This document shows positions 4,621-16,243 of a stretch of 52,702 bases of DNA, piece by piece (position 1 is the stretch's first letter; each line of letters opens with the position of its first letter). The translations under genes were made by a program, and so were the position numbers. Source of the DNA: Pseudonocardiales bacterium (GTDB taxonomy: Bacteria; Actinomycetota; Actinomycetes; Mycobacteriales; Jatrophihabitantaceae); the NCBI GenBank assembly GCA_030840445.1, contig JAVEEN010000223.1:1-52702 (forward strand). The letters run 5' to 3'. Under the pieces are notes generated by a model that did not search any database, was not told the origin of the DNA, and worked only from the letters and a program-made list of their open reading frames with translations.

Positions 4621-5028
4621 CCACTTGGCTAAATAGCCTGTCGCACCGCGCGGCTGGACGGCGCCGCCTTCGGGATCACCCACACCGAACAGCTCAGTGA
4701 CTACGCCGACCGGGGCGAGAGCATGGCTATCTGCACCGCAAGTGAGGTCCGTCGACCGCCGGCTGGCGCGACTCCAGCCGGCCGAGCCGCGCGTAGCGGA
4801 GTCCGTCGAGTACGCCACCGCTGAGCGGCCCGCCAGGTGCTGCCGGAGTTGCACGACCGTTGGGGCGCGAGGCTCCGGGAGCCGTGAACCGGCGACCCTC
4901 AGCGCACGTACCTACCCGGTCGAGGTCGAAGCCGTGCCGGAAGTCCTCGGATGGACCTCGCATTCCTCTAGGGGCGGGCACCGTTTCACGGGACGGATTT
5001 CTAACTTCGGCAGGTAGCGTGCTGGGGT
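4621..5028. other. 408-bp stretch without a convincing gene; possible coding relic
   Basis: No ORF with a plausible start and family resemblance fits here. In the plus-strand frame from 4633 to the TGA at 4810-4812 about 36 codons (4651-4758) have strongly GC-biased third positions and read like a real protein fragment (for example ITHTEQLSDYADRGES), but there is no start codon or recognisable family. I read it as a possible decayed gene piece. The rest contains an inverted repeat flanked by direct repeats (listed separately) and then the short leader of the next gene. Confidence 0.4.
4747..4809. repeat. Inverted repeat flanked by 9-bp direct repeats
   Basis: CCGGCTGG (4759-4766) and CCAGCCGG (4774-4781) form a perfect 8-bp stem with a 7-nt loop. 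The direct repeats GTCCGTCGA (4747-4755 and 4801-4809) bracket it. The arrangement resembles a small REP- or MITE-like intergenic element, but a single copy in this window cannot prove mobility. Confidence 0.45.
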
Positions 5029-5967
5029 GTGACCGCGCTGCAGACCCGACCTCGGCTGCTCACGGGGTCAGACACCGCGCCGCTGCGGCGATTGGTGCGC
5101 CGTGACGCCCTGGTCAACTGCGTCCTTGACTCGAGATTGCAGTACGCACCTGATCTCGACGCGCGGCGGCTGGGTGGGTTCGTCTGGGGCCTCGACGGCC
5201 CGATGCTGGCCCCCGACGGCTCACGCGACATCGACGGCTCACGCGACATCGACGGCGACTCCGTATCCACCGCCGGTGCGACGTCGCTGCGGGCGGCGCT
5301 CTTCCACGGCGGAAACCTGATCCCGGTCGGGCGTGACCTGGAGGCGTTGGAACTGCTCGCCGAGCAGCTGTCGCGCAATGGCCGCGGTTGTTCGTCGATC
5401 GTAGGTCCGGCGGATTCGGTACAGGCGATCTGGCCGGTACTCGCGCGTCGCTGGGGTCCTGCCCGGGCGATCCGGATGAGTCAACCCCTGCTGATGATCG
5501 ATCGTGCCGCGGCGGCGAAGATCGAGCATCTCGTCGACCGTTCCGTTCGGATCGTCCACCCCACCGAGGAGCAGCAGTTCCTGCCGGCCGCGGTCGCCAT
5601 GTTCACCGAGGAACTCGGCATGTCACCGCTCGGACGCGATCGGGGCGCCGGCTACCGCGCCCGGGTGAGCGAGGTGGTCGCGGCCCGCCGGGCGTTCGCG
5701 AGGTTCGACGATCGTGGGCGGGTGCAGTTCAAGGCCGAGATCGGCGCGCTGTCCGCCGGCACCGCTCAACTGCAGGGCGTCTGGGTGCGCCCGGACTTGC
5801 GGGGGCTAGGAATCGGCACGGCGGCGATGGCCGCGGTACTGCGGCTCGCGTTGGACCGGGCGCCGACGGTCAGTCTCTACGTCAACGACTTCAACATCCC
5901 GGCCCGTCGGATGTACGACCGGCTGTGCATGCGCCAGGCCGGCGTCCTCAGCACCGTCCTGTTCTGA
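5029..5967 (+). CDS. GNAT acetyltransferase with N-terminal DUF4081-like domain
   Basis: A 312-residue protein whose C-terminal half (about 170-312) is a GNAT fold with the acetyl-CoA loop RPDLRGLGIGTAAM and the terminal LYVNDFNIPARRMYDRL. The N-terminal half matches the DUF4081 type found in the gene after ispG in Mycobacterium (the Rv2867c position). The substrate is unknown. The GTG start at 5029 is preceded by GGGG only. Residues about 64-75 carry a six-residue tandem duplication GSRDID-GSRDID encoded by an exact 18-bp repeat, placed in a variable loop. Confidence 0.88.
   Translation: MTALQTRPRLLTGSDTAPLRRLVRRDALVNCVLDSRLQYAPDLDARRLGGFVWGLDGPMLAPDGSRDIDGSRDIDGDSVSTAGATSLRAALFHGGNLIPVGRDLEALELLAEQLSRNGRGCSSIVGPADSVQAIWPVLARRWGPARAIRMSQPLLMIDRAAAAKIEHLVDRSVRIVHPTEEQQFLPAAVAMFTEELGMSPLGRDRGAGYRARVSEVVAARRAFARFDDRGRVQFKAEIGALSAGTAQLQGVWVRPDLRGLGIGTAAMAAVLRLALDRAPTVSLYVNDFNIPARRMYDRLCMRQAGVLSTVLF
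5218..5253 (+). repeat. Perfect 18-bp in-frame tandem duplication in the GNAT gene
   Basis: GGCTCACGCGACATCGAC occurs at 5218-5235 and again immediately at 5236-5253, adding six residues without disturbing the frame. Exact identity suggests a recent slippage event. Confidence 0.9.
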
Positions 5968-6055
5968 AACACGGTGCTGTCCGGCGAAGGCGGTGCTGTC
6001 CCGCGATGGCGGCTGGCTGCGCGCCCCGTCGGTGGTCCCTGATATTCATCTCAGC

Positions 6056-6733
6056 ATGACTCTTGATGCTGTGATCTTCGACTGGGGCGGCACGCTAACT
6101 CCGTGGCATACGGTCGACCCGCTCGCGTGCTGGCTGGCTGTGACGTCCGACGAGCGTCAGGCCGCGGCGCTGCACGAAGCCGAGGCGGCGGTCTGGGCCT
6201 TGTGCCGGGACGAGCACCGCAGCGCCACACTGGACCACGTACTGGACGCGGCCGCGTTGACGCTGACCGCAGCTCAGCGTCGGGCCTACTTCGATTGGTG
6301 GGATGCGCACTCCTTCACCGATCCGGCGGTCGAACCGTTGTTCCAGGGCCTCAACGAGCGCGGCCTGAAGATCGGCATCCTGTCGAACACCATCTGGCCC
6401 CGGGACGAACACGAACGCATCTTCACTCGCGATCTGGTGCACTCCTATATCGACGGAGCCGTGTACTCCTCGGAAATCGAATGGACCAAACCTGACCCGC
6501 GGGCGTTCCGCGCAGCCATGGACGCCGTCGGCGTGCAGGATCCGTCTCGCGCGGTGTTCGTCGGGGACCGGCTGTTCGACGACATCTTCGGAGCCAAACG
6601 CGCTGGCATGCGCGCCGTCCACGTTCCGCACAGCGACATACCGGCCTGGCAGAGCACGGGTGTGGTGGGCGAACCGGACGCGGTCATCGACGGCTTGCTC
6701 GATCTGTTGCAGGTCATCGATGCCTGGCGCTGA
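6056..6733 (+). CDS. HAD-superfamily hydrolase (putative phosphatase)
   Basis: A 225-residue haloacid dehalogenase-like hydrolase. Motif I is FDWGGT (nucleophile D9), motif II LSNT, motif III the Lys in EWTKPDP, and motif IV VGDRLFDDIFGAKRAGM. The usual second Asp of DxDxT, the acid/base residue at position 11, is Gly, as in the DxGGT subgroup. I choose the ATG at 6056 because the domain begins at residue 4; an in-frame ATG at 5993 would add 21 residues with no homology. It is convergent with the DUF4439 gene, 18 bp away. The substrate cannot be inferred. Confidence 0.85.
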   Translation: MTLDAVIFDWGGTLTPWHTVDPLACWLAVTSDERQAAALHEAEAAVWALCRDEHRSATLDHVLDAAALTLTAAQRRAYFDWWDAHSFTDPAVEPLFQGLNERGLKIGILSNTIWPRDEHERIFTRDLVHSYIDGAVYSSEIEWTKPDPRAFRAAMDAVGVQDPSRAVFVGDRLFDDIFGAKRAGMRAVHVPHSDIPAWQSTGVVGEPDAVIDGLLDLLQVIDAWR

Positions 6734-6751
6734 CGAGGTTCGGCAGCGGCG

Positions 6752-7261
6752 TCAGATGCCGGGAAAGGGAACCGTGGGGGTCGCGGGGGTCAACAGTGCG
6801 CGCCAGTAACGGGCGGTCTGGGCCGATCCCGACAGTCCGGTGAGGGCCTGCTTGCGCAGGGTGCCGGTTTCGGTCGCTGCCGCGACGGTGCCGGTTTCGG
6901 TCGCTGCCGCGACGAGAAGGAATCGGTATCCGGCTGAGCAGGCTTCTTCCAGGGCCAATGCCCACCGTTGGGCCGCGATGGCGTCGGTCAGCTTCTCCGG
7001 TGGTGCGTAGGACGGTTGGGCCGCGACCGGTGCTGCGCCAGCGCTGGAAAGCTGGGCCATCAGGTCGTCGCGGGTCGCGCGGTGTTCGGCCTGCAGGTCC
7101 CTGACCCGACTCACCTGCGTCGCATCGGTCAACCTCACGCCAATCATCGAGTAGGCGAAATAGGCGGCGTGCTGCGCGTCAAGGACGTTCTGCAGCGCCG
7201 TGATCGCGGTGCTTGCGCCAGCACTGTTCGGCGACACGGTGGAACCGCTCGGGCTGGTCAC
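6752..7261 (-). CDS. Ferritin-like DUF4439 protein
   Basis: A 169-residue mostly helical, Ala-rich protein with the DUF4439 hallmarks: ALQNVLDAQHAAYFAYSMIG near the N-terminus and EEACSAGYRFLLVAAATETG before the C-terminal helix, a ferritin-like four-helix arrangement. I place the start at the GTG 7261-7259, which overlaps the TGA of the upstream gene (GTGA, 4 bp), implying translational coupling. The same pair sits beside rimP in Mycobacterium (Rv2843/Rv2844 region). A 9-residue tandem duplication, AAATETGTV then AAATETGTL, lies near residues 115-135. No metal-binding role is shown by the sequence alone. Confidence 0.82.
   Translation of the reverse strand: MTSPSGSTVSPNSAGASTAITALQNVLDAQHAAYFAYSMIGVRLTDATQVSRVRDLQAEHRATRDDLMAQLSSAGAAPVAAQPSYAPPEKLTDAIAAQRWALALEEACSAGYRFLLVAAATETGTVAAATETGTLRKQALTGLSGSAQTARYWRALLTPATPTVPFPGI
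6861..6914 (-). repeat. Perfect 27-bp in-frame tandem duplication in the DUF4439 gene
   Basis: The 27-bp unit 6861-6887 is repeated exactly at 6888-6914, adding nine residues (AAATETGTV). The duplication falls at the end of a predicted long helix. Confidence 0.93.
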
Positions 7262-7767
7262 GGCGCCAGCACCTTGCCGTGGGTATCCAGACAGGCGGAG
7301 ATGCTGCCGAGCATCGGCACGATCTGGCTGGCGTGCTGCTCGGTCACCGGCCACGCCAGGCAGCCCGCGGAAAAGGCTGCCGCAGCCGCTTTGCTGGCTG
7401 CGGTCAGCCCGGCCACGGTGGCGGCCACGGTGGCGGACGAAGAGCCGGCAGGTGGCAGGGTGGGATTCAGTCGCCAGCCGGGGTAGTTCTCCAGGAGGCC
7501 GCGCAGGGCGTCACCGTGGGCGGCCACGTCGCTGCGCAGCGGGTCCAGGAGAGCTGCCTGGTCGGGCAGGGCGGTGACGGCCCGCTGGTACCCGGTCAGC
7601 AGCCGTACCTGGGTCGAGAGCAGGGCGGTCAGTCGCTGCGGCGGGGGTGCCGGTGGTAGGGCGAGCTTGTGGTGCACAGCCCGGGTGACGCCCAGTCCGG
7701 TACCTGCGGCTGCGGCGGCGACCAACACGGTGCGGCTCAGCAGCGTGCGTCGCGAGATCTCAACCAT
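7258..7767 (-). CDS. Tat-signal exported protein of unknown function, partner of DUF4439 gene
   Basis: A 169-residue protein beginning MVEISRRTLLSR, a twin-arginine motif at R6-R7 followed by an Ala-rich hydrophobic stretch (14-28), so export in folded form is likely. The mature part is Ala/Leu-rich and helical with two Cys near the C-terminus (in SAGCLAWP and SACLDTHG) that could form a disulfide. No lipobox Cys is seen. It is the first gene of a two-gene unit with the ferritin-like gene (4-bp overlap) and is divergent from rimP. I infer that the two products act together outside the membrane, but the role is unknown. Confidence 0.75.
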   Translation of the reverse strand: MVEISRRTLLSRTVLVAAAAAGTGLGVTRAVHHKLALPPAPPPQRLTALLSTQVRLLTGYQRAVTALPDQAALLDPLRSDVAAHGDALRGLLENYPGWRLNPTLPPAGSSSATVAATVAGLTAASKAAAAAFSAGCLAWPVTEQHASQIVPMLGSISACLDTHGKVLAP

Positions 7768-7852
7768 GACCGGAGCAGTCTCTCAGATGCCGGTAGTCTG
7801 ATCCCAGGTAACGCCTCGCTTTACAACTGGACACCGACGGGAGCGCGAAGAC

Positions 7853-8347
7853 ATGGCTGCGCGAACACCCCAACGCCAACAGCTCATGGAGCTGCTCGGA
7901 CCGGTGATCACGTCCCAGGGATATGACCTGGAGGACCTGTCGGTCACCGCCGCGGGCCGGCGCAGTGTCATCCGGGTGATCGTTGACTCCGATTCCGGCA
8001 TCGACCTGGACGGCGTGGCCGAAGTGTCGCGAGCGGTCTCCGAAATCCTTGACGCCGAGGCAGAGCCGGCGAGCGCAGCGGCGTTCTCGGGACCGTATGT
8101 CCTCGAGGTGTCCTCCCCGGGGGTGGATCGTCCGCTCACCGAACCCAGGCACTGGCGGCGCGCCGTCGGCCGTCTCGTCAGCGTCGCCATCTCCGACCAG
8201 TCCGTCACCGGGCGCGTTCTCGCAGGTGGCGAGGACGGCATCGTCCTCGAGGTCGACGGAGTCAAGATCAATCACTCACTGTCGGAGCTGGGACCCGGTC
8301 GTATCCAGGTCGAGTTCTCCCACGCCGACGATCACAAGGAGGCCTGA
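7853..8347 (+). CDS. rimP: Ribosome maturation factor RimP
   Basis: A 164-residue protein that assists 30S subunit assembly (S12/S5 region). The N-terminal alpha/beta domain carries [10 protein letters not shown] and [19 protein letters not shown]; the block ending [20 protein letters not shown] is the RimP signature, followed by a C-terminal SH3-like domain. ATG at 7853. It opens the rimP-nusA-ylxR-infB-rbfA cluster and lies 5 bp before nusA. Confidence 0.96.
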
Positions 8348-8352
8348 GCCCC

Positions 8353-9501
8353 ATGGTCTCAGTTGACATCGCAGCGCTGCGCAGTATCGAACGTGAGAAG
8401 GAGATACCGTTCGACACCGTCATGGAGGCGCTGGAAACTGCGCTGCTGACGGCGTACCGGCACACCAACCATCCGATGCCCAGCGCTCGGGTGGAAATCG
8501 ACCGCAAGAGCGGCGAGATCACCGTCTGGGCCGCCGAGCACGGTCCGGACGGCGCGCTGATCGAGGAATTCGACGACACGCCGACCGACTTCGGACGGAT
8601 CGCCGCCATGACCGCGAAACAGGTGATCATGCAGCGACTGCGGGACGCCGAGCACGACACCACGTACGGCGAATACTCCGGCCATGAAGGCGACATCGTC
8701 ACCGGCGTGATCCAGGCCGATGCCCAGGCCGCCCAGCGGGGGCTGGTCATCATCGAGCTCAACAACAAGATCGAAGCTGTCCTGCCGCAGTCGGAGCAGG
8801 TTCCCGGCGAGGTCTATAACCACGGCACTCGGATCAAGTCCTACGTCGTCGCCGTCACCCGAGGCATGCGAGGTCTGCAGATCACACTGAGCCGGACGCA
8901 CCCGGGCCTGGTCAAGAAGCTGTTCGCCTTGGAGGTGCCCGAGATCGCCGACGGCAGCGTGGAGGTGATGGCCGTGGCCCGGGAGTCCGGCCACCGGACC
9001 AAGATCGCGGTGCGCAGCACCGTCGACGGGCTGAACGCCAAGGGCGCATGTATCGGTCCGATGGGACAACGGGTCCGCAATGTTGTCGCCGAACTGCACG
9101 GCGAGAAGATCGACATCATCGACTACGACGACGATCCCGGGACATTCGTCGGAAATGCGCTGTCACCGGCGCGCGCCCAGCAGATCACCATCGTCGACCC
9201 GATGGCGAAAGCCGCTCGAGTGGTCGTCCCGGATTATCAGCTCTCCCTCGCCATCGGCCGTGAGGGTCAGAACGCACGGCTCGCCGCCCGGCTGACTGGT
9301 TGGCGGATCGATATCCACTCCGACGCCGAGGGAAATGACGGGCGGACTGGCGGGCGAACTGACGGGGGGAATGCCGAAACCGCCTCACCCGTTGTAGCCG
9401 AGGTCGGCATTGGCCAGTCGGCTGGCTCTGGGCGATTGGTCGGCACGATGGGAGCTGCGGACCCAGGTCCGGTGGATTCGTCCGCCGAACATAGGGAGTA
9501 G
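8353..9501 (+). CDS. nusA: Transcription termination/antitermination factor NusA
   Basis: RNA polymerase-binding factor of 382 residues controlling pausing, termination and rrn antitermination. Domain order: N-terminal RNAP-binding region (1-125), S1 domain (about 130-200, GDIVTGVIQ to [10 protein letters not shown]), then KH1 and KH2 ([16 protein letters not shown] and [21 protein letters not shown]). It lacks the acidic repeats of E. coli NusA and instead ends in a low-complexity Gly/Asp/Thr tail with the repeat [11 protein letters not shown]-like region (about residue 330 on), typical of actinobacterial forms in length but not in sequence. Confidence 0.96.
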
Positions 9502-9509
9502 ACTCGTCC

Positions 9510-9845
9510 GTGGCCGTCACCCCATTGGGGGCAGTCCCGCTGCATCATGTGGTCATCCGCACGTGCATCGGCTGCCGCCACAGAGCGACAGCCGCCGAGT
9601 TGCTCCGCGTCGTCGCGGATCGTGCGGTATCCATTGTCCCGGTTGATCCGGTTCAGGTCCGCCCGGATCCACGCCGTCGCGCGCCGGGCAGGGGAGCATG
9701 GATTCACCCGAACCCGGAATGCGTCGCTCTCGCTGAGCGTCGTCGGGCCTTCGGGAGGGCGCTGCGGATCGCAGCGGCCACCGATCCGACGCCGGTCCGT
9801 GAATACGTCGCATTGTTGTTCGCCGCCAGTCCGACTGGTGAGTGA
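9510..9845 (+). CDS. ylxR: YlxR family (DUF448) RNA-binding protein
   Basis: A 111-residue basic protein found between nusA and infB in many Gram-positive bacteria, implicated as a nucleoid or RNase P-associated regulator in other species. The family signature RTCIGCR sits at residues 17-23 with Cys19 and Cys22, and GRGAWIHPNPECV follows near residue 61. GTG start at 9510, 8 bp after nusA. Confidence 0.9.
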   Translation: MAVTPLGAVPLHHVVIRTCIGCRHRATAAELLRVVADRAVSIVPVDPVQVRPDPRRRAPGRGAWIHPNPECVALAERRRAFGRALRIAAATDPTPVREYVALLFAASPTGE

Positions 9846-9927
9846 GCGGCCCAGCAACCAGCACCATCCCGCTCGGCTACCGCCGATCGGGACACAGGGG
9901 AGACCCGCGAAAGTGAGACGAAGAGCT

Positions 9928-9973
9928 ATGAGCACCCGATGAAGCGCCAACCATGATTGCGTTTCCCACCTAA
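9928..9973 (+). promoter_or_regulatory. Three ATGA-chained mini-ORFs in the infB leader
   Basis: uORF1 ATG AGC ACC CGA TGA (9928-9942, MSTR), uORF2 at 9939-9956 (MKRQP) and uORF3 at 9953-9973 (MIAFPT). The stop of each overlaps the start of the next by ATGA. They end 45 nt before the infB GTG. A hairpin (CCCG...CGGG, 9868-9891) precedes them. The arrangement suggests reinitiation-dependent control of initiation factor IF2; see findings. Confidence 0.55.
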
Positions 9974-10018
9974 ATCGGGACTGTGCGGGTCACCGCCGGT
10001 CCTGCGACAAGGAGTCCA

Positions 10019-12865
10019 GTGGCAGGCAAGGCCCGCGTACACGAGCTCGCCAAAGAGCTTGGTGTGCCCAGTAAAGAAGTTCTAGCAAAGCTCAGCGAAC
10101 TCGGTGAGTTCGTCAAGAGCGCTTCGTCGACGGTCGAGGCGCCAGTTGCGCGCCGGCTGCGTGAAGCATTCCCCGCCGAGGCGGCAGGGCCCGCGAAGAA
10201 GACCACCGCCAAGGCAACGGTCAACCCGGTGCCCGCCGCGGCGGCCCCGGCCGCAGTGGCCGAGACGCCGTCGCCAGTCGCACCGATTCCGCCGGTTTCG
10301 GTCCCGATCGCTCCGGCGGCGACAGCAGCTCCGACGAGCCCCGCCGCACCCGCGGCGTTGGACGATCAGAGCGCAGCGACCCGGCCGACGAGCCCGGCCG
10401 CCTCGCCGAGGCCGGCCGGACCCCGTCCGGGTGCGCCTCGGGTCGCCAACAACCCGTTCGGCGTCGGTGGCGGTCAGTCTGCTGTGCGACCGGCATCACC
10501 TCGTCCCGCAGGCACCACGCCGGGTCACAATCAGGGCCAGATGCCGCCCCGCCCGGCCAGCCCCCGTCCGGGTGGCTCGGCCGGTCCCGGCGGCCCCCGG
10601 CCCAACCCAGGCATGATGCCGCCCCGGCCCAACCCGGGCACGGTGCCGGGTCGCACCGGCGGCCCCGGCCGTCCAGGCGGTCCCGGCCGTCCGGGCGGTC
10701 CTCCCGGTCCCGGTGGCGCTGGTCGCCCAGCCGGTCCCGGTGGCGCTGGTCGTCCTGGTGGCGCTCCTGCCGGAGGCGGTAACTACCGCACCGGTGGACC
10801 CGGCGGTGGCGGCGGCGGTGGCTATCGCGGTGCCCCCGGTGGCGGCGGTGGTGCAGGTGCTCCCGGTGGTGGCGGCTTCGGTCCCCGTCCCGGCGGTGGC
10901 GGACCCGGTGGTCGCGGTCGCGGCGCCGGTACGGCCGGAGCGTTCGGCCGGCAGGGTGGTCGTCCGACCCGAGGCCGCAAGAGCAAGAAGCAGCGGCGTC
11001 AGGAGTTCGACAACATGTCGGCTCCGTCGATCGGCGGCGTTCAGGTTCCGCGTGGCAACGGCGACGTCTTACGGCTGCCCCGTGGCGCCTCGCTATCCGA
11101 TTTCGCCGAGAAGATCAATGCCGAACCGGCTTCGCTGGTCACGGTGATGTTCCACCTCGGAGAGATGGTCACCGCGACCCAGTCGGTCAACGAAGAGACC
11201 CTGCAACTGCTCGGTGCCGAGCTGAACTACAACGTCCAGGTCGTAAGCCCCGAGGACGAGGACCGCGAGCTGCTCGAGTCCTTCGACCTGACCTTCGGCG
11301 ATGACCAGGGCGAAGACGCGGACCTGATTGCCCGGGCCCCGATCGTGACCGTGATGGGCCACGTCGACCACGGTAAGACCCGTCTGCTCGATGCGATCCG
11401 TAAGACGAACGTCATCGGAGGCGAGGCCGGCGGCATCACCCAGCACATCGGTGCCTATCAGGTGCACGTCGACCACGACGGCAGCACTCGGCCGATCACC
11501 TTCATCGACACCCCTGGTCACGAGGCGTTCACCGCCATGCGTGCCCGTGGTGCCAAGGTGACGGACATCGCCGTGCTGGTGGTCGCGGCCGACGACGGCG
11601 TCATGCCGCAAACGATCGAGGCGCTCAACCACGCCCAGGCTGCGGAAGTGCCGATCGTGGTGGCCGTCAACAAGATCGACAAGGAAGGCGCCAACCCGGC
11701 CAAGGTCCGCCAGCAGCTGACCGAGTACGGGCTGGTGGCCGAGGAGTATGGCGGCGACACGCTGTTCGTCGACGTCTCGGCGCGAAACAACCTGCACATC
11801 GACGATCTGCTCGAGGGCATCCTGCTGACCGCTGACGCGGCACTGGACCTGCGGGCAAACCCGGATCAGGACGCGCAGGGCATCGCCATCGAGGCTCATC
11901 TGGACCGCGGTCGTGGTCCGGTGGCAACGGTGCTGGTACAGCGCGGAACGCTGAACGTCGGTGACTCCATCGTGGCCGGTGACGCGTTCGGCCGGGTCCG
12001 GGCCATGCTCGACGACGACGGCAACCCCGTCGACCAGGCCGGACCGGGTACTCCGGTGATGGTGCTCGGCCTGACCTCCGTGCCCGGCGCCGGTGACTCG
12101 TTCATCGTCGTCGAGGAGGATCGGATCGCCCGCCAGATCGCCGACCGGCGGTCGACGCGGGAACGGAACGCGCAGCTGGCGTCCAACCGTCGACGGATCT
12201 CCCTCGACGACCTGGACAAGGCACTCGCCGCCGGTGAGGTTCAGCAGCTGAACCTGATCATCAAGGGTGACGTCTCCGGCTCGGTGGAGGCCCTCGAAGA
12301 TTCGTTGTTGAAGATCGAGCTCAACGACGGAAACGACGAGGTGTCGCTGCGGGTCATCGGTCGCGGCGTCGGTGCGATCAACGAGAACGACGTCAACCTG
12401 GCCATCGCCTCGGACGCCGTCATCATCGGCTTCAACGTCCGGCCGGCGGGCAAGGCCGGTGAGATGGCGGACCGCGAAGGTGTGGATGTCCGGTACTACA
12501 CGGTCATCTACCAGGCGATCGACGAGATCGAAGCGGCGCTCAAGGGCATGCTCAAGCCCGAGTTCGAAGAGGCACAGCTCGGCACCGCCGAGGTCCGTGA
12601 GGTGTTCAGGGTTCCGAAGATCGGAAACGTCGCTGGTTCGATCGTGCGGTCTGGCACGATCAGGCGTAACTCCAAGGCGCGCCTGGTCCGCGACGGCATC
12701 GTGGTCAACGAGCACCTGTCGGTGGATTCGCTGCGGCGGTTCAAGGACGATGCGACCGAGGTCCGCGAGGGCTTCGAGTGCGGTATCGGCCTCGGGTCGT
12801 TCAACGACATCAAGGTCGGCGACATCATCGAGACCTTCGAGATGCGCGAGAAGCCGCGCGGCTAG
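10019..12865 (+). CDS. infB: Translation initiation factor IF-2
   Basis: GTPase that brings fMet-tRNA to the 30S subunit and promotes subunit joining. I start at the GTG 10019 ([16 protein letters not shown]), matching the conserved actinobacterial N-terminus and preceded by AAGGAG (10009-10014); a GTG at 9983 would add 12 residues. Length is 948. The order is IF2_N helix domain, a Pro/Ala then extremely Gly/Pro/Arg-rich linker (about 120-320), G domain with G1 GHVDHGKT (447-454), DTPGH, NKID and SAR motifs, then domains II-IV ending in EMREKPRG. The linker is the only odd part, low in complexity and over 80% G+C. Confidence 0.97.
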
Positions 12866-12878
12866 TTCAGGAAGCGAT

Positions 12879-12919
12879 CGGGGAGTTTTCCGTCCATCAA
12901 CTGGACGGGAAACTCCCCG
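12879..12919 (+). terminator. 18-bp near-perfect hairpin between infB and rbfA
   Basis: The arms 12879-12896 and 12902-12919 pair over 18 positions with one G-U-type pair and a 5-nt loop TCAAC. It starts 14 nt after the infB stop. No T-tract follows, and rbfA begins 26 nt later, so it could be a U-less terminator/attenuator, an mRNA-stabilising end or an RNase III site. Confidence 0.75.
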
Positions 12920-12944
12920 ACGTATGTGAGGAAGGGAAGACACC

Positions 12945-13415
12945 ATGGCTGATTCGCCCAGATCCCGGCGGATGGCAGGGCGCATTCGGCAGATCGTCGC
13001 CTCCTACATCGAGAGCCAGATCAAGGACCCACGACTCGGCATGGTCACCGTCACCGACGTGCGGATGACCGGCGATCTGCACGACGCGACGATTTTCTAC
13101 ACCGTGTTCGGGGACAACAACGAACGGGCCGACTCGAGTGCGGCCCTCGAAGCCGCCAAGGGCCAGATGCGATCAGAGGTCGGCCGCCAGACCGGGGTGA
13201 AGTTCACCCCGACGCTGACCTTCGTACCCGACGAGATCCCCGAGACGGCCAAGCACATCGAGGAGCTGCTCGCCGTGGCCCGGCAGGCGGACGCGGAGGT
13301 GCTGAAGGTTCGGGAGAACGCGGTTCCGGCCGGTGACCCCGACCCCTACCGCAAGCCTCGTGAGGACGACGAGAACGAGGACGACGAGGCTGCCGGCGCC
13401 GCGGCGCAGGCCTGA
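12945..13415 (+). CDS. rbfA: 30S ribosome-binding factor A
   Basis: A 156-residue KH-like protein required for 16S rRNA 5'-end maturation and cold adaptation. The family core is visible: [25 protein letters not shown] at the N-terminus, [18 protein letters not shown] and the [17 protein letters not shown] segment. The C-terminal tail is highly acidic ([12 protein letters not shown]). ATG at 12945 with GAGGAAGGGA just upstream. It follows infB after a strong hairpin. Confidence 0.95.
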
Positions 13416-13438
13416 CGCGCCAGAAAGACGGGACGCAG

Positions 13439-13981
13439 ATGCTCATCCGGACCGCGACGGAACTCGACTGGCCCTCGGTCTGGCCGTTCTGGCGCGAGAT
13501 CGTCGCGGCGGGGGACACCTATACCTACGAGCCGATTACCGATTCGGAGCGGGCCCGGGAAGTCTGGTTCGGTTCCGGCAGCTACCAGACCTGGGTCTGC
13601 ACGATTGATGACTCAGACGAATCCGAGTCCGACGAACCCGGCAGCCCGGCACCGACCGACGATGCCGGCCGGATCGTGGGCACCTATCACCTCGGGCCCA
13701 ACCACGGTGGTGCCGGTTCGCACATCGCGAACGGCTCCTACATGGTGGCGCCCGGAATCCGGGGCCACGGCATCGGTCGCGCCATGGTCGAGCACTCCAT
13801 CAGGCGCGCCACCGAGTCCGGTTACCTGGGAATCCAGTTCAATGCGGTTGCGGCCAGCAATACGTACGCGATAAGGCTGTATGTCGATCTCGGATTCAAC
13901 ATCATCGGACGGGTTCCCGGCGGATTTCGGCATCCCCAACAGGGGTTGATCGATCTGTTGATCATGCACCGCGCTCTGTAG
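13439..13981 (+). CDS. GNAT family N-acetyltransferase
   Basis: A 180-residue acetyltransferase with the acetyl-CoA loop VAPGIRGHGIGRAMVEHSI near residue 102 and the C-terminal NTYAIRLYVDLGFNIIGR block. The substrate is unknown. An acidic Ser/Asp/Glu-rich insertion (about 60-80, DDSDESESDEPGS) interrupts the sheet before the IVGTYHLGPN strand. It lies 23 bp after rbfA, where many actinobacteria carry the DHH phosphoesterase nrnA, and 45 bp before the MATE gene. Confidence 0.9.
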   Translation: MLIRTATELDWPSVWPFWREIVAAGDTYTYEPITDSERAREVWFGSGSYQTWVCTIDDSDESESDEPGSPAPTDDAGRIVGTYHLGPNHGGAGSHIANGSYMVAPGIRGHGIGRAMVEHSIRRATESGYLGIQFNAVAASNTYAIRLYVDLGFNIIGRVPGGFRHPQQGLIDLLIMHRAL

Positions 13982-14026
13982 CAATAGCGGCCCTGCGGCC
14001 AAGCCATCTCGAGAGGAGGGAGTGCG

Positions 14027-15334
14027 GTGACCACCACGGACGCGTCGTCCCGGCGCATCGTGGCCCTGGCCGCTTCCGCCTTCGTGGTTTTGGCCGCGGA
14101 ACCATTGTTCCTGCTGGTCGACACCGCAGTGGTCGGTCATCTGGGGCGGGTGCCGCTCGCCGCCCTGGGGGCCGCAGGCACGATCATGACCCTGCTTGCC
14201 ATCGTGGGCACCTCCCTCGAGTACGGCACCACCGGGCGGGCCGCCCGCTTCTACGGCGCGGGTCGACGCGAGGCCGCTGTGAACGAAGGCGTGCAGGCAT
14301 CGTGGCTCGGCCTGCTGATCGGCCTGGTGGCCGTGGTCGTCGGTGAGTTGGTTGCGGGCCCGGTCACCCGGCTGGTGGCCGGCGGCTCCAATGACGTCGC
14401 GGCGGCCGCCGAATCCTGGCTGCGCATCGCCGTGCTCGGACTTCCCGGGATCCTGCTGGTGCTTGCTGGAAACGGTTGGCTGCGGGGCGTCCAGGACACC
14501 CGGACCCCGGTTCGAATCGTGCTCGTCGCGAATGTGCTGTCCGCGCTGGCCTCGCCGCTACTGGTCTATCCGGCCGGTCTGGGGCTGGCGGGCTCCGCGG
14601 TGGCGAACGTGCTGGCGCAGTGGGTCGGAGCTGCACTCTGCGTCCTCGCGATTCGCCGGGAGTCGGTGCCATCGGTGCCGCACTGGCACGTGATGCGCAA
14701 GCAGTTGGTGGTGAGCCGGGATCTGGTTCTCCGCGCGCTGGCCTTTCAAGCCGCCTACCTGACGGCGGCCGGGGTCGCGGGCCGAATGGGGGCGGCGCAA
14801 CTGGCGGCGCACCAGGTGGGCCTGCAACTGTGGGAGTTCATCGCCCTGCTCCTCGATTCCTTCGCCATCGCCGCCCAGTCGCTGGTGGGCGCGGCTCTCG
14901 GCAGCGGCGATGTCGATGCGGCCCGGAACACAGCCTGGCGGGTGAGCCGATTCGGGATCAGCGCCGGTGTGGTGTTCGGGGCGCTGATGGCGGCCAGCTG
15001 GTACGTGCTGCCCGCCGCGTTCAGCTCGGACCAGGAAGTTCAGCACCAGGCCCATATCTTGTGGCCGTGGCTGGTGTCGCTGATGCCCCTGGCCGGTGTG
15101 GTCTTCGCGCTGGACGGGGTCCTGCTGGGTGCCGGGGACAATGCGTTCGTGCGTACCGTGACCCTGGTCGCGGCGCTCGGCGGCTACGTACCGCTGTGTC
15201 TGGCCGCATTGCATTTCGGCTGGGGTCTGGGTGGCGTGTGGCTCGGCCTGGCCGTATTCATCGCGATCCGGTTCGTCGGGATGGCCTGGCGGACCCGGAG
15301 CGATCGATGGCTCGTCGTAGGGGAGACGTTGTGA
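14027..15334 (+). CDS. dinF: MATE family efflux transporter (DinF-like)
   Basis: A 435-residue integral membrane protein with about 12 hydrophobic segments, of the multidrug and toxin extrusion family, driven by an ion gradient. Recognisable are AAEPLFLLVDTAVVGHLG near residue 25 and the duplicated counterpart near 245 (MGAAQLAAHQVGLQLWEF). GTG start at 14027 with an excellent GAGGAGGG (14013-14020). The position after rbfA and before truB matches dinF of Mycobacterium. The transported compound is unknown. Confidence 0.92.
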   Translation: MTTTDASSRRIVALAASAFVVLAAEPLFLLVDTAVVGHLGRVPLAALGAAGTIMTLLAIVGTSLEYGTTGRAARFYGAGRREAAVNEGVQASWLGLLIGLVAVVVGELVAGPVTRLVAGGSNDVAAAAESWLRIAVLGLPGILLVLAGNGWLRGVQDTRTPVRIVLVANVLSALASPLLVYPAGLGLAGSAVANVLAQWVGAALCVLAIRRESVPSVPHWHVMRKQLVVSRDLVLRALAFQAAYLTAAGVAGRMGAAQLAAHQVGLQLWEFIALLLDSFAIAAQSLVGAALGSGDVDAARNTAWRVSRFGISAGVVFGALMAASWYVLPAAFSSDQEVQHQAHILWPWLVSLMPLAGVVFALDGVLLGAGDNAFVRTVTLVAALGGYVPLCLAALHFGWGLGGVWLGLAVFIAIRFVGMAWRTRSDRWLVVGETL

Positions 15335-15337
15335 CCG

Positions 15338-16243
15338 ATGGTGCGTAAGGGGCCGACCGGACCCGGTGGGCTGATCATCGTGGACAAGCCGTCCGGCATG
15401 ACCTCCCACGATGTGGTGTCGAAGGTGCGGCGACTGGCCAAGACTCGCCGGGTCGGACACGCCGGCACGCTCGACCCGATGGCCACCGGGGTGCTGGTGA
15501 TCGGCGTCGAACGGTCGACCAAATTGTTGAATCATTTGGTCCTGACGGACAAGACCTATACCGCCACCATCCGGCTCGGCGCCGCCACGACCACCGACGA
15601 CGCCGACGGCGAGATCACGGACGCGGCGGACGCCTCGAAGCTGTCTCGACCACAGATCCTGGCCGGAATCGCCATCCAGCGTGGCGAAATCCAGCAACGC
15701 CCCTCGTCCGTTTCGGCGATCAAGATCGACGGCGAACGGGCATACGCGCGGGTCCGGGCCGGCGAGACAGTGGACCTGGCGGCCCGTCCGGTGGTCGTCT
15801 CGCGGTTCGAGCTCATCGGCGAACCGCAACTTCTGGATCGGTTCTGCGACCTCGACGTGATCGTCGACTGTTCATCAGGCACCTACGTACGCGCGCTGGC
15901 CCGCGACCTCGGGCAGCTGCTCGGCGTCGGGGGGCACCTGACCGCGCTGCGGCGCACCCGAGTGGGTCCCTTCTCCCTCGATCAAGCCCTCACCCTGGAC
16001 GAGCTGGCCGAGCTCGCGGATCCGATCGTGCTGCCCCTGCCACAGGCGATCGCGGCAGCCATGCCGATCCGGCAGATCACCGAAGCCGAGGCGGCCGAAC
16101 TGAGCTTCGGGCGGACGATCGAGCCGGCCGGCATCCAGGGCACGCATGGTGCCATCAAGCCCGGCGGGGTCGCGGTGGCGCTGCTCGAGGAGTCGGCCGG
16201 CCGCAGCCGTCCGGTTCTCGGCTTCACCCCCGCGGGCAGTTGA
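15338..16243 (+). CDS. truB: tRNA pseudouridine-55 synthase
   Basis: Makes pseudouridine 55 in the T-loop of tRNAs. The 301-residue protein has GGLIIVDKPSGMTSHDVV at residues 10-27 and the catalytic motif GHAGTLDPMATGVL with Asp46, then SGTYVRALARDLG and the C-terminal LDELAELADPIVLPL region. The ATG at 15338 lies 3 bp after the MATE stop; a GTG one codon later is also possible. ribF and rpsO, which often follow truB, are not here; efp comes next after about 208 bp. Confidence 0.96.
   Translation: MVRKGPTGPGGLIIVDKPSGMTSHDVVSKVRRLAKTRRVGHAGTLDPMATGVLVIGVERSTKLLNHLVLTDKTYTATIRLGAATTTDDADGEITDAADASKLSRPQILAGIAIQRGEIQQRPSSVSAIKIDGERAYARVRAGETVDLAARPVVVSRFELIGEPQLLDRFCDLDVIVDCSSGTYVRALARDLGQLLGVGGHLTALRRTRVGPFSLDQALTLDELAELADPIVLPLPQAIAAAMPIRQITEAEAAELSFGRTIEPAGIQGTHGAIKPGGVAVALLEESAGRSRPVLGFTPAGS

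Follow-up and report, generated by a model that had tools for sequence, protein, structure and literature searches.

Three NTGA-linked mini-ORFs precede infB across the Actinomycetes and may form a termination-reinitiation ladder controlling IF2 synthesis

Background

Initiation factor IF2 is universal and essential. What, then, are three tiny ORFs, each starting on the stop codon of the one before it, doing in the leader of its gene, infB? The question is raised by an initial annotation of the 52,702-nt stretch of DNA analyzed here (the window, a contig of a Pseudonocardiales bacterium, JAVEEN010000223.1), which described mini-ORFs encoding MSTR, MKRQP and MIAFPT between ylxR and infB, joined by two ATGA links and ending 45 nt before the infB start, and which held that such a double chain is improbable by chance. 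It further suggested that a ladder of this kind could sense initiation capacity, in a logic comparable to IF3 autoregulation, an interpretation that proved partly supported. Here we follow this arrangement through the Actinomycetes and weigh the explanations for it; the hairpin, the invariant GTG start and the class boundary reported below are additions to that annotation.

Methods

The best 80 of at least 175 relatives found in a scan with the InfB N-terminus make up the named loci, a choice biased to near kin. Further leaders were taken from part of the matches in overlapping genome sets (phylum, 322 of 396 matched; class, 280 of 296; order, 110 of 121; family, 18 of 24), and the families referred to are those among the matches listed. 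Five loci were excluded, L001 as a second copy of the window and L129-L132 as contig edges or weaker paralogous matches. The leaders read comprise 221 from the class Actinomycetes (42 numbered families plus the named loci), which gave 212 distinct sequences when anchored at the infB start, and 20 from outside the class. Under the strict rule a chain consists of at least three NTGA-linked ORFs, each of 3-9 codons, within 150 nt; the relaxed rule allows 220 nt, 3-12 codons and links of -4 to +3. The row sets of 206-207 used for folds, arm pairs, ylxR ends and length or codon variants include two repeats of one genome. Since the class leaders are related by descent, our counts are not independent events, and the argument rests on which features changed and which were kept.

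Results

The mini-ORF chain and its distribution

The coordinates and peptides of the three mini-ORFs proved exact, as did their placement (Table 1). The downstream gene matches the NCBIfam IF-2 equivalog above its cut-off, and the product of 9510-9845 matches RnpM, which we take to be the same gene product as YlxR, at 45.4 bits, under the cut-off of 80. An in-frame GTG at 9913-9915, 5' of mini-ORF 1, would give a longer peptide, MRRRAMSTR, and a similar extension is found in some other leaders.

Table 1. Features of the infB leader and its surroundings in the window
Feature	Position	Strand	Content and basis
nusA, ylxR-like gene and infB in a row (surroundings of the ladder)	8353-12865		ORFs, translations
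nusA	8353-9501		NCBIfam NusA match above cut-off
ylxR	9510..9845	+	ORF and translation; ends 82 nt upstream of the ladder
Mini-ORF 1	9928..9942	+	ATGAGCACCCGATGA; MSTR, stop
Mini-ORF 2	9939..9956	+	ATGAAGCGCCAACCATGA; MKRQP, stop; ATGA link to ORF 1 at 9939-9942
Mini-ORF 3	9953..9973	+	ATGATTGCGTTTCCCACCTAA; MIAFPT, stop; ATGA link to ORF 2 at 9953-9956
Mini-ORF 3 stop, TAA	9971-9973	+	
Hairpin, ORF 3 stop to infB Shine-Dalgarno	9976..10004	+	CGGGACTG...CGGTCCTG; folds, swap tests
infB Shine-Dalgarno, AAGGAG	10009..10014	+	sequence
infB (IF2), GTG start at 10019	10019..12865	+	NCBIfam IF-2 equivalog above cut-off

When the window's own 150-nt leader was shuffled with its dinucleotide content preserved, 60 of 20,000 shuffles contained a chain of at least three ORFs (NTG starts, 3-9 codons). 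Throughout the whole genome the pattern ATGA-N7-RTGA-N7..13-ATGA, which represents one ladder spacing only, has three matches, namely the ladder of the window, one that is out of frame, and one that is in frame (C310:985), the surroundings of which were inspected cursorily.

The strict chain is found in 204 of the 212 distinct class leaders against 40 of 10,600 dinucleotide shuffles, and the relaxed chain in 211 of 212 against 32 of 2120. Even with ATG as the only start codon allowed, 110 of 214 leaders (a set that includes a few repeats of one genome) contain it, compared with 3 of 10,700 shuffles. These counts exclude the possibility, raised in the initial annotation, that the chained starts would not be conserved in related genomes; the ATGAGCAC-CGATGA motif that it ascribed to infB leaders of other actinobacteria is indeed present there. 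The conservation is class-wide and ends with the class, as none of the 20 actinobacterial leaders from outside it has the chain under either rule, a single link being found in three. Nor does the chain occur before tuf, rpsB or rplT in 30 diverse class genomes (0 of 74 leaders, with one link in two of them; 13 of the 87 loci were without a usable leader).

Eight leaders fail the strict rule (L097, L168, L169, L174, L187, L196, L204 and L205). The relaxed rule admits seven of these, in which inspection by eye shows a variant of the ladder (a longer ORF, a TAATG or near-overlap link, or a greater distance). The remaining one, L097, fails both rules, since it has one base less than its kin, leaving ORF 3 open into the hairpin; this Nocardia-like leader is either a sequencing error or a genuine exception. 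In the small-genome family f99, where the leaders have 45-49% GC, the same design is written in different codons (MKLK/MSSLEL/MRSFN).

Features that vary and features that are kept

The peptides are free to change. The 205 chains encode 54 distinct peptides in ORF 1, 70 in ORF 2 and 116 in ORF 3, for example MSTP/MKSR/MTMRHS in Mycobacterium, MSTR/MKSLK/MTRLQVHE in Micromonospora, MSQP/MKLKP/MNARR in Saccharomonospora and MSTR/MSTR/MSTPMN in a class genus that is presumably Streptomyces. Across these peptides there were no conserved regulatory codons and no arrest peptide of the kind that marks a leader-peptide attenuator. The ORF lengths form 23 distinct triples, synonymous variants are present, and ORF 3 stops at TAA (110), TAG (57) or TGA (38). 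Against this variation, ORF 1 has its ATG at the canonical position in 187 of 205 chains, ORF 2 starts with ATG in 117 and GTG in 88, and ORF 3 starts with ATG in all but one. Put differently, the base 5' of the shared TGA is A (117) or G (88) and never T at link 1, and A (204) or T (1) at link 2; a C at this place breaks the rule, which only 8 of 212 leaders fail. The nucleotides of ORF 1 are strongly conserved in part of the class, with ATGAGCACACCGTGA in 60 of 63 MSTP leaders. The last sense codon is CGA in 100 of 205 chains for ORF 1 and 127 of 205 for ORF 2, and CCG in 78 of 205 for ORF 1, and such final codons might slow termination.

The succession of frames 0, 2 and 1 and the whole-codon lengths are imposed by the chain rule itself, and the finding proper is the near-universal compliance with that rule among leaders whose sequences have changed. 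The rule tolerates any peptide, yet peptides, lengths and stops differ among the leaders that pass it, from which we infer that the frames are selected. Judged on this pattern, the mini-ORFs look like short translated frames in which the linkage, and not the product, is under selection.

Surroundings of the ladder

The geometry downstream of the ladder is fixed, the distance from the ORF 3 stop to the infB start being 36-54 nt in 186 of 205 chains and 36-68 nt in 204, with the 45 nt of the window among them. The Shine-Dalgarno match is at most 3 nt before ORF 3 in 202 of 205 chains, 4-5 nt before ORF 1 in 152 and at least 5 nt before infB in 189; a weak match at ORF 3 against a strong one at infB is as expected for starts by reinitiation and de novo, respectively. 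On the upstream side, a motif search located the end of ylxR in 142 of the 207 rows, with some doubt in a few. In 61 of these the gene ends upstream of the ladder. In the other 81 of the 142 its end falls within the ladder, in a frame that differs by genus: 32 have an ATGA link between ylxR and ORF 1, in 29 ylxR shares the ORF 1 stop in frame, and 20 show some other overlap. The ladder persists while the end of ylxR drifts.

All 212 distinct class leaders have GTG as the infB start, and the 19 scored outside the class have ATG (9), GTG (6) or TTG (4). Since tuf (23 of 27) and rplT (19 of 27) are also rich in GTG starts in class genomes, the invariant GTG of infB is mild support only and is given little weight; rpsB starts with ATG in 24 of 24, possibly an internal Met. 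In two f99 genomes (L257 and L261) infB has GTG although tuf has ATG. Start-codon discrimination of the infC type was considered for infB and rejected, as GTG is a standard start and no start outside ATG, GTG and TTG was found. In Streptomyces, infB is listed among the SigR-dependent genes (PMC5472188).

The hairpin before infB

In the stretch from the ORF 3 stop to the infB Shine-Dalgarno, a hairpin with 7 or more pairs forms in the folds of 203 of 204 leaders. For 197 of the 204 its 5' edge is -3 to +6 nt from that stop, and for 173 its 3' edge is 13-17 nt before the infB start codon. The folding z over 207 leaders has a median of -2.05; 53% of the values are below -2 and 86% are below -1. 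The outer arms come in 80 different pairs among 206 rows, and the arms covary across leaders: with arms delimited by external anchors, a leader's own arms pair at a median of -19.7 kcal/mol, compared with -13.1 when arms are exchanged with those of unlike leaders, and the native combination ranks among the best 5% for 100 of 204 leaders and for 34 of 46 non-redundant ones (32 of 46 in a first run). When the arms were defined by the folds, 15 of 27 had their own pairing in the best 5%. When 60 rows of the region were aligned by MAFFT, RNAalifold gave no base pairs, a result that counts against the hairpin as so tested and that we attribute to the shifting of the arms with length; the model derived from this alignment captured sequence only and was set aside. 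The hairpin is claimed on single-sequence folds and swap tests. A ribosome that terminates at ORF 3 would, to judge from its size, sit over the 5' arm.

We also considered whether the leader could hide the infB Shine-Dalgarno. In the window, the lowest-energy fold of 9920-10040 (z -2.13) pairs the 5' arm of the hairpin with ORFs 1 and 2 and leaves the Shine-Dalgarno hidden, and in Nocardia- or Micromonospora-type leaders a CCTC in the hairpin is a possible partner for the GAGG of the Shine-Dalgarno. Among 27 leaders of relatives the fold of the window was not a general feature, and pairing of the 3' arm with the Shine-Dalgarno is hardly better for a leader's own sequences (-8.8) than for swapped ones (-7.3), being in the best 5% in 11.7% of 206 rows and in 3 of 27. 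An anti-Shine-Dalgarno switch is thus not upheld as a general mechanism. No terminator-like site was seen at 9300-10100 of the window, and Rfam 15 gave no gathering match over 5000-16000 of the window and none at E<=1 in the loci of 20 relatives.

Discussion

The reading that we favor, and to which we would give about an even chance, is that the infB leader is a translated termination-reinitiation ladder, broken before infB, that controls IF2 synthesis in cis. A ribosome would start at mini-ORF 1 or come from ylxR, terminate, and reinitiate by way of mini-ORFs 2 and 3 at the 4-nt NTGA overlaps, of which two are found in 204 of 212 leaders. After ORF 3 the chain would be broken by the hairpin that lies before the strong infB Shine-Dalgarno and, in most genomes, by the 36-54 nt gap to the GTG. 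The occupancy of the translated ladder would then set infB translation. Because each reinitiation would need IF2 and initiator tRNA, passage through three serial steps could depend steeply on initiation capacity. At high capacity, ribosomes would be consumed in the ladder and released ahead of the hairpin; at low capacity, they would skip ORFs 2 and 3 and be held by the infB Shine-Dalgarno, so that IF2 would be restored, and the competition between ladder and infB would amount to negative feedback. The proposed signal and the sign of the control are the least certain part of this scheme, and the sign is a guess; if the ladder ribosomes crossed the hairpin, the element would be a positive one instead.

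That the ladder senses IF2 or initiation capacity is plausible by analogy, because IF2 favors reinitiation in E. coli. There, reinitiation with an initiator tRNA of poor affinity for IF2 rose about 2.5-fold on overproduction of IF2; overproduction of IF3 lowered reinitiation, and the need for IF2 may be greater in reinitiation than in de novo initiation (PMC2268962). As reviewed in PMC12548453, most E. coli studies place the optimum of coupling at -4 to +3 nt and find it 3-10-fold weaker near +40 nt, while other studies saw it undiminished up to +25 nt, and 70S-scanning in vitro was IF3-dependent and equal at +1 and +39 nt. Since coupling is several-fold weaker near +40 nt in most of these studies, the gap between ORF 3 and infB would be the weak link, and the optimal spacing within the ladder, followed by this gap and the hairpin, suggests a design of tight, tight and broken.

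The main rival is a plain relay, in which the ladder passes ribosomes from ylxR or ORF 1 to infB and keeps the genes in step with no sensing at all. A ylxR stop inside the ladder also fits simple coupling from ylxR, whether it is ATGA-linked to ORF 1, in frame at the stop of ORF 1 or in another overlap (32, 29 and 20 of 142), and in M. tuberculosis reporters showed that ribosomes use the short uORF of ppe2 as a landing pad, by way of an AUGA overlap (PMC11260477). We nevertheless think the relay unlikely, as ylxR ends upstream of the ladder in 61 of 142 leaders, here by 82 nt, the step to infB is never tight and has the hairpin in its way, infB has a strong Shine-Dalgarno of its own, and one link, rather than three, would suffice. 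Two links of -4 also place three ORFs in three frames, and it can be imagined that the ladder is merely a cassette of stops that halts ylxR ribosomes in every frame before infB, with the restarts incidental. Many genomes do use a ladder stop for ylxR. Such a cassette would need to keep its stops alone, yet the base at link 1 is held to A or G, that at link 2 is A in 204 of 205 chains, and ORF 1 keeps its ATG at the canonical position, all of which makes this explanation improbable.

Two further explanations do without reinitiation as the point of the ladder. Translation of the mini-ORFs could shield the leader from Rho or nucleases, so that the level of infB would follow the survival of its mRNA; in M. 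tuberculosis, Rho and translated uORFs reportedly shape premature termination. A single longer ORF would be better suited to this purpose than three short ones, and the 9300-10100 region of the window is without a terminator-like site, and protection of the transcript is improbable. Alternatively, the AUGA repeats could be a protein-binding or structural motif in an untranslated RNA element, a proposal that could draw on the nucleotide conservation of ORF 1 in the MSTP leaders. The linkage is constant while the peptides, lengths and third stop change, there is no Rfam match, and pairing of the ladder with the hairpin arms, the Shine-Dalgarno or upstream sequence was not above swapped controls in 27 non-redundant leaders, a result on which the ladder was rejected as a structural RNA; this last explanation is very improbable.

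Termination-reinitiation thus remains our preferred reading, under which the ladder has the look of an ancient element controlling the start of protein synthesis. The 42 families sampled keep it, whether their genomes are small, with leaders near 45% GC, or large and rich in GC. It makes the setting of the IF2 level directly testable in Actinomycetes, and would offer a natural assay of reinitiation and of the part that IF2, IF3, initiator tRNA and recycling factors play in it. A literature search in which part of the queries named infB, and which had subscription literature mostly outside its scope, returned no description of the infB mini-ORFs; two papers in which both infB and uORF occur (PMC7157823 and PMC9031893) mention infB in passing in the sections available. 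Given this and the absence of an Rfam match, we rate the ladder as a new form of uORF or reinitiation control, unusual in the number of its ORFs, its spread and the gene it precedes.

Among known systems, the 4-nt overlap and the reinitiation expected from it are shared with NTGA-overlapping gene pairs (PMC6728339, PMC12548453), which are pairs of protein genes, whereas the infB ladder is a serial chain of very short ORFs. The MIRU repeats of mycobacteria likewise carry a small ORF coupled at -4 nt (PMC12548453), but they are mobile and occupy many sites, while the ladder is fixed before infB, with one further in-frame match of the same spacing in the genome. Closest among the tested cases is ppe2 of M. 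tuberculosis with its one AUGA-linked uORF, also in an actinobacterial leader and with reinitiation demonstrated by reporters (PMC11260477); that uORF overlaps the main gene and stands behind a B12 riboswitch, whereas before infB there are three, class-wide, with no overlap of the main gene. In autoregulation of infC through its ATT or ATC start, the gene for an initiation factor (IF3) is controlled through the role of that factor in a homeostatic loop, as proposed here, but by start-codon discrimination, in place of which infB has a uORF ladder and a standard GTG start (PMC5472188). Finally, the four uORFs of yeast GCN4 (PMC5972666) resemble the infB leader in being short and serial and in the separation of the last uORF from the main ORF. 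A further likeness, should our model be right, would be an output set by the loading of post-termination ribosomes with initiator tRNA. It is possible, though we hold it tentatively and as less than probable, that infB follows a similar logic across the Actinomycetes, gauging IF2 and fMet-tRNA through three serial reinitiations and adjusting its own translation, in which case the joint probability of the three steps would give a steep, roughly cubic response. GCN4 differs in that its mechanism is eukaryotic 40S scanning, its uORFs are spaced and not overlapping, and its main gene encodes a transcription factor, where the ladder described here stands before the gene for an initiation factor.
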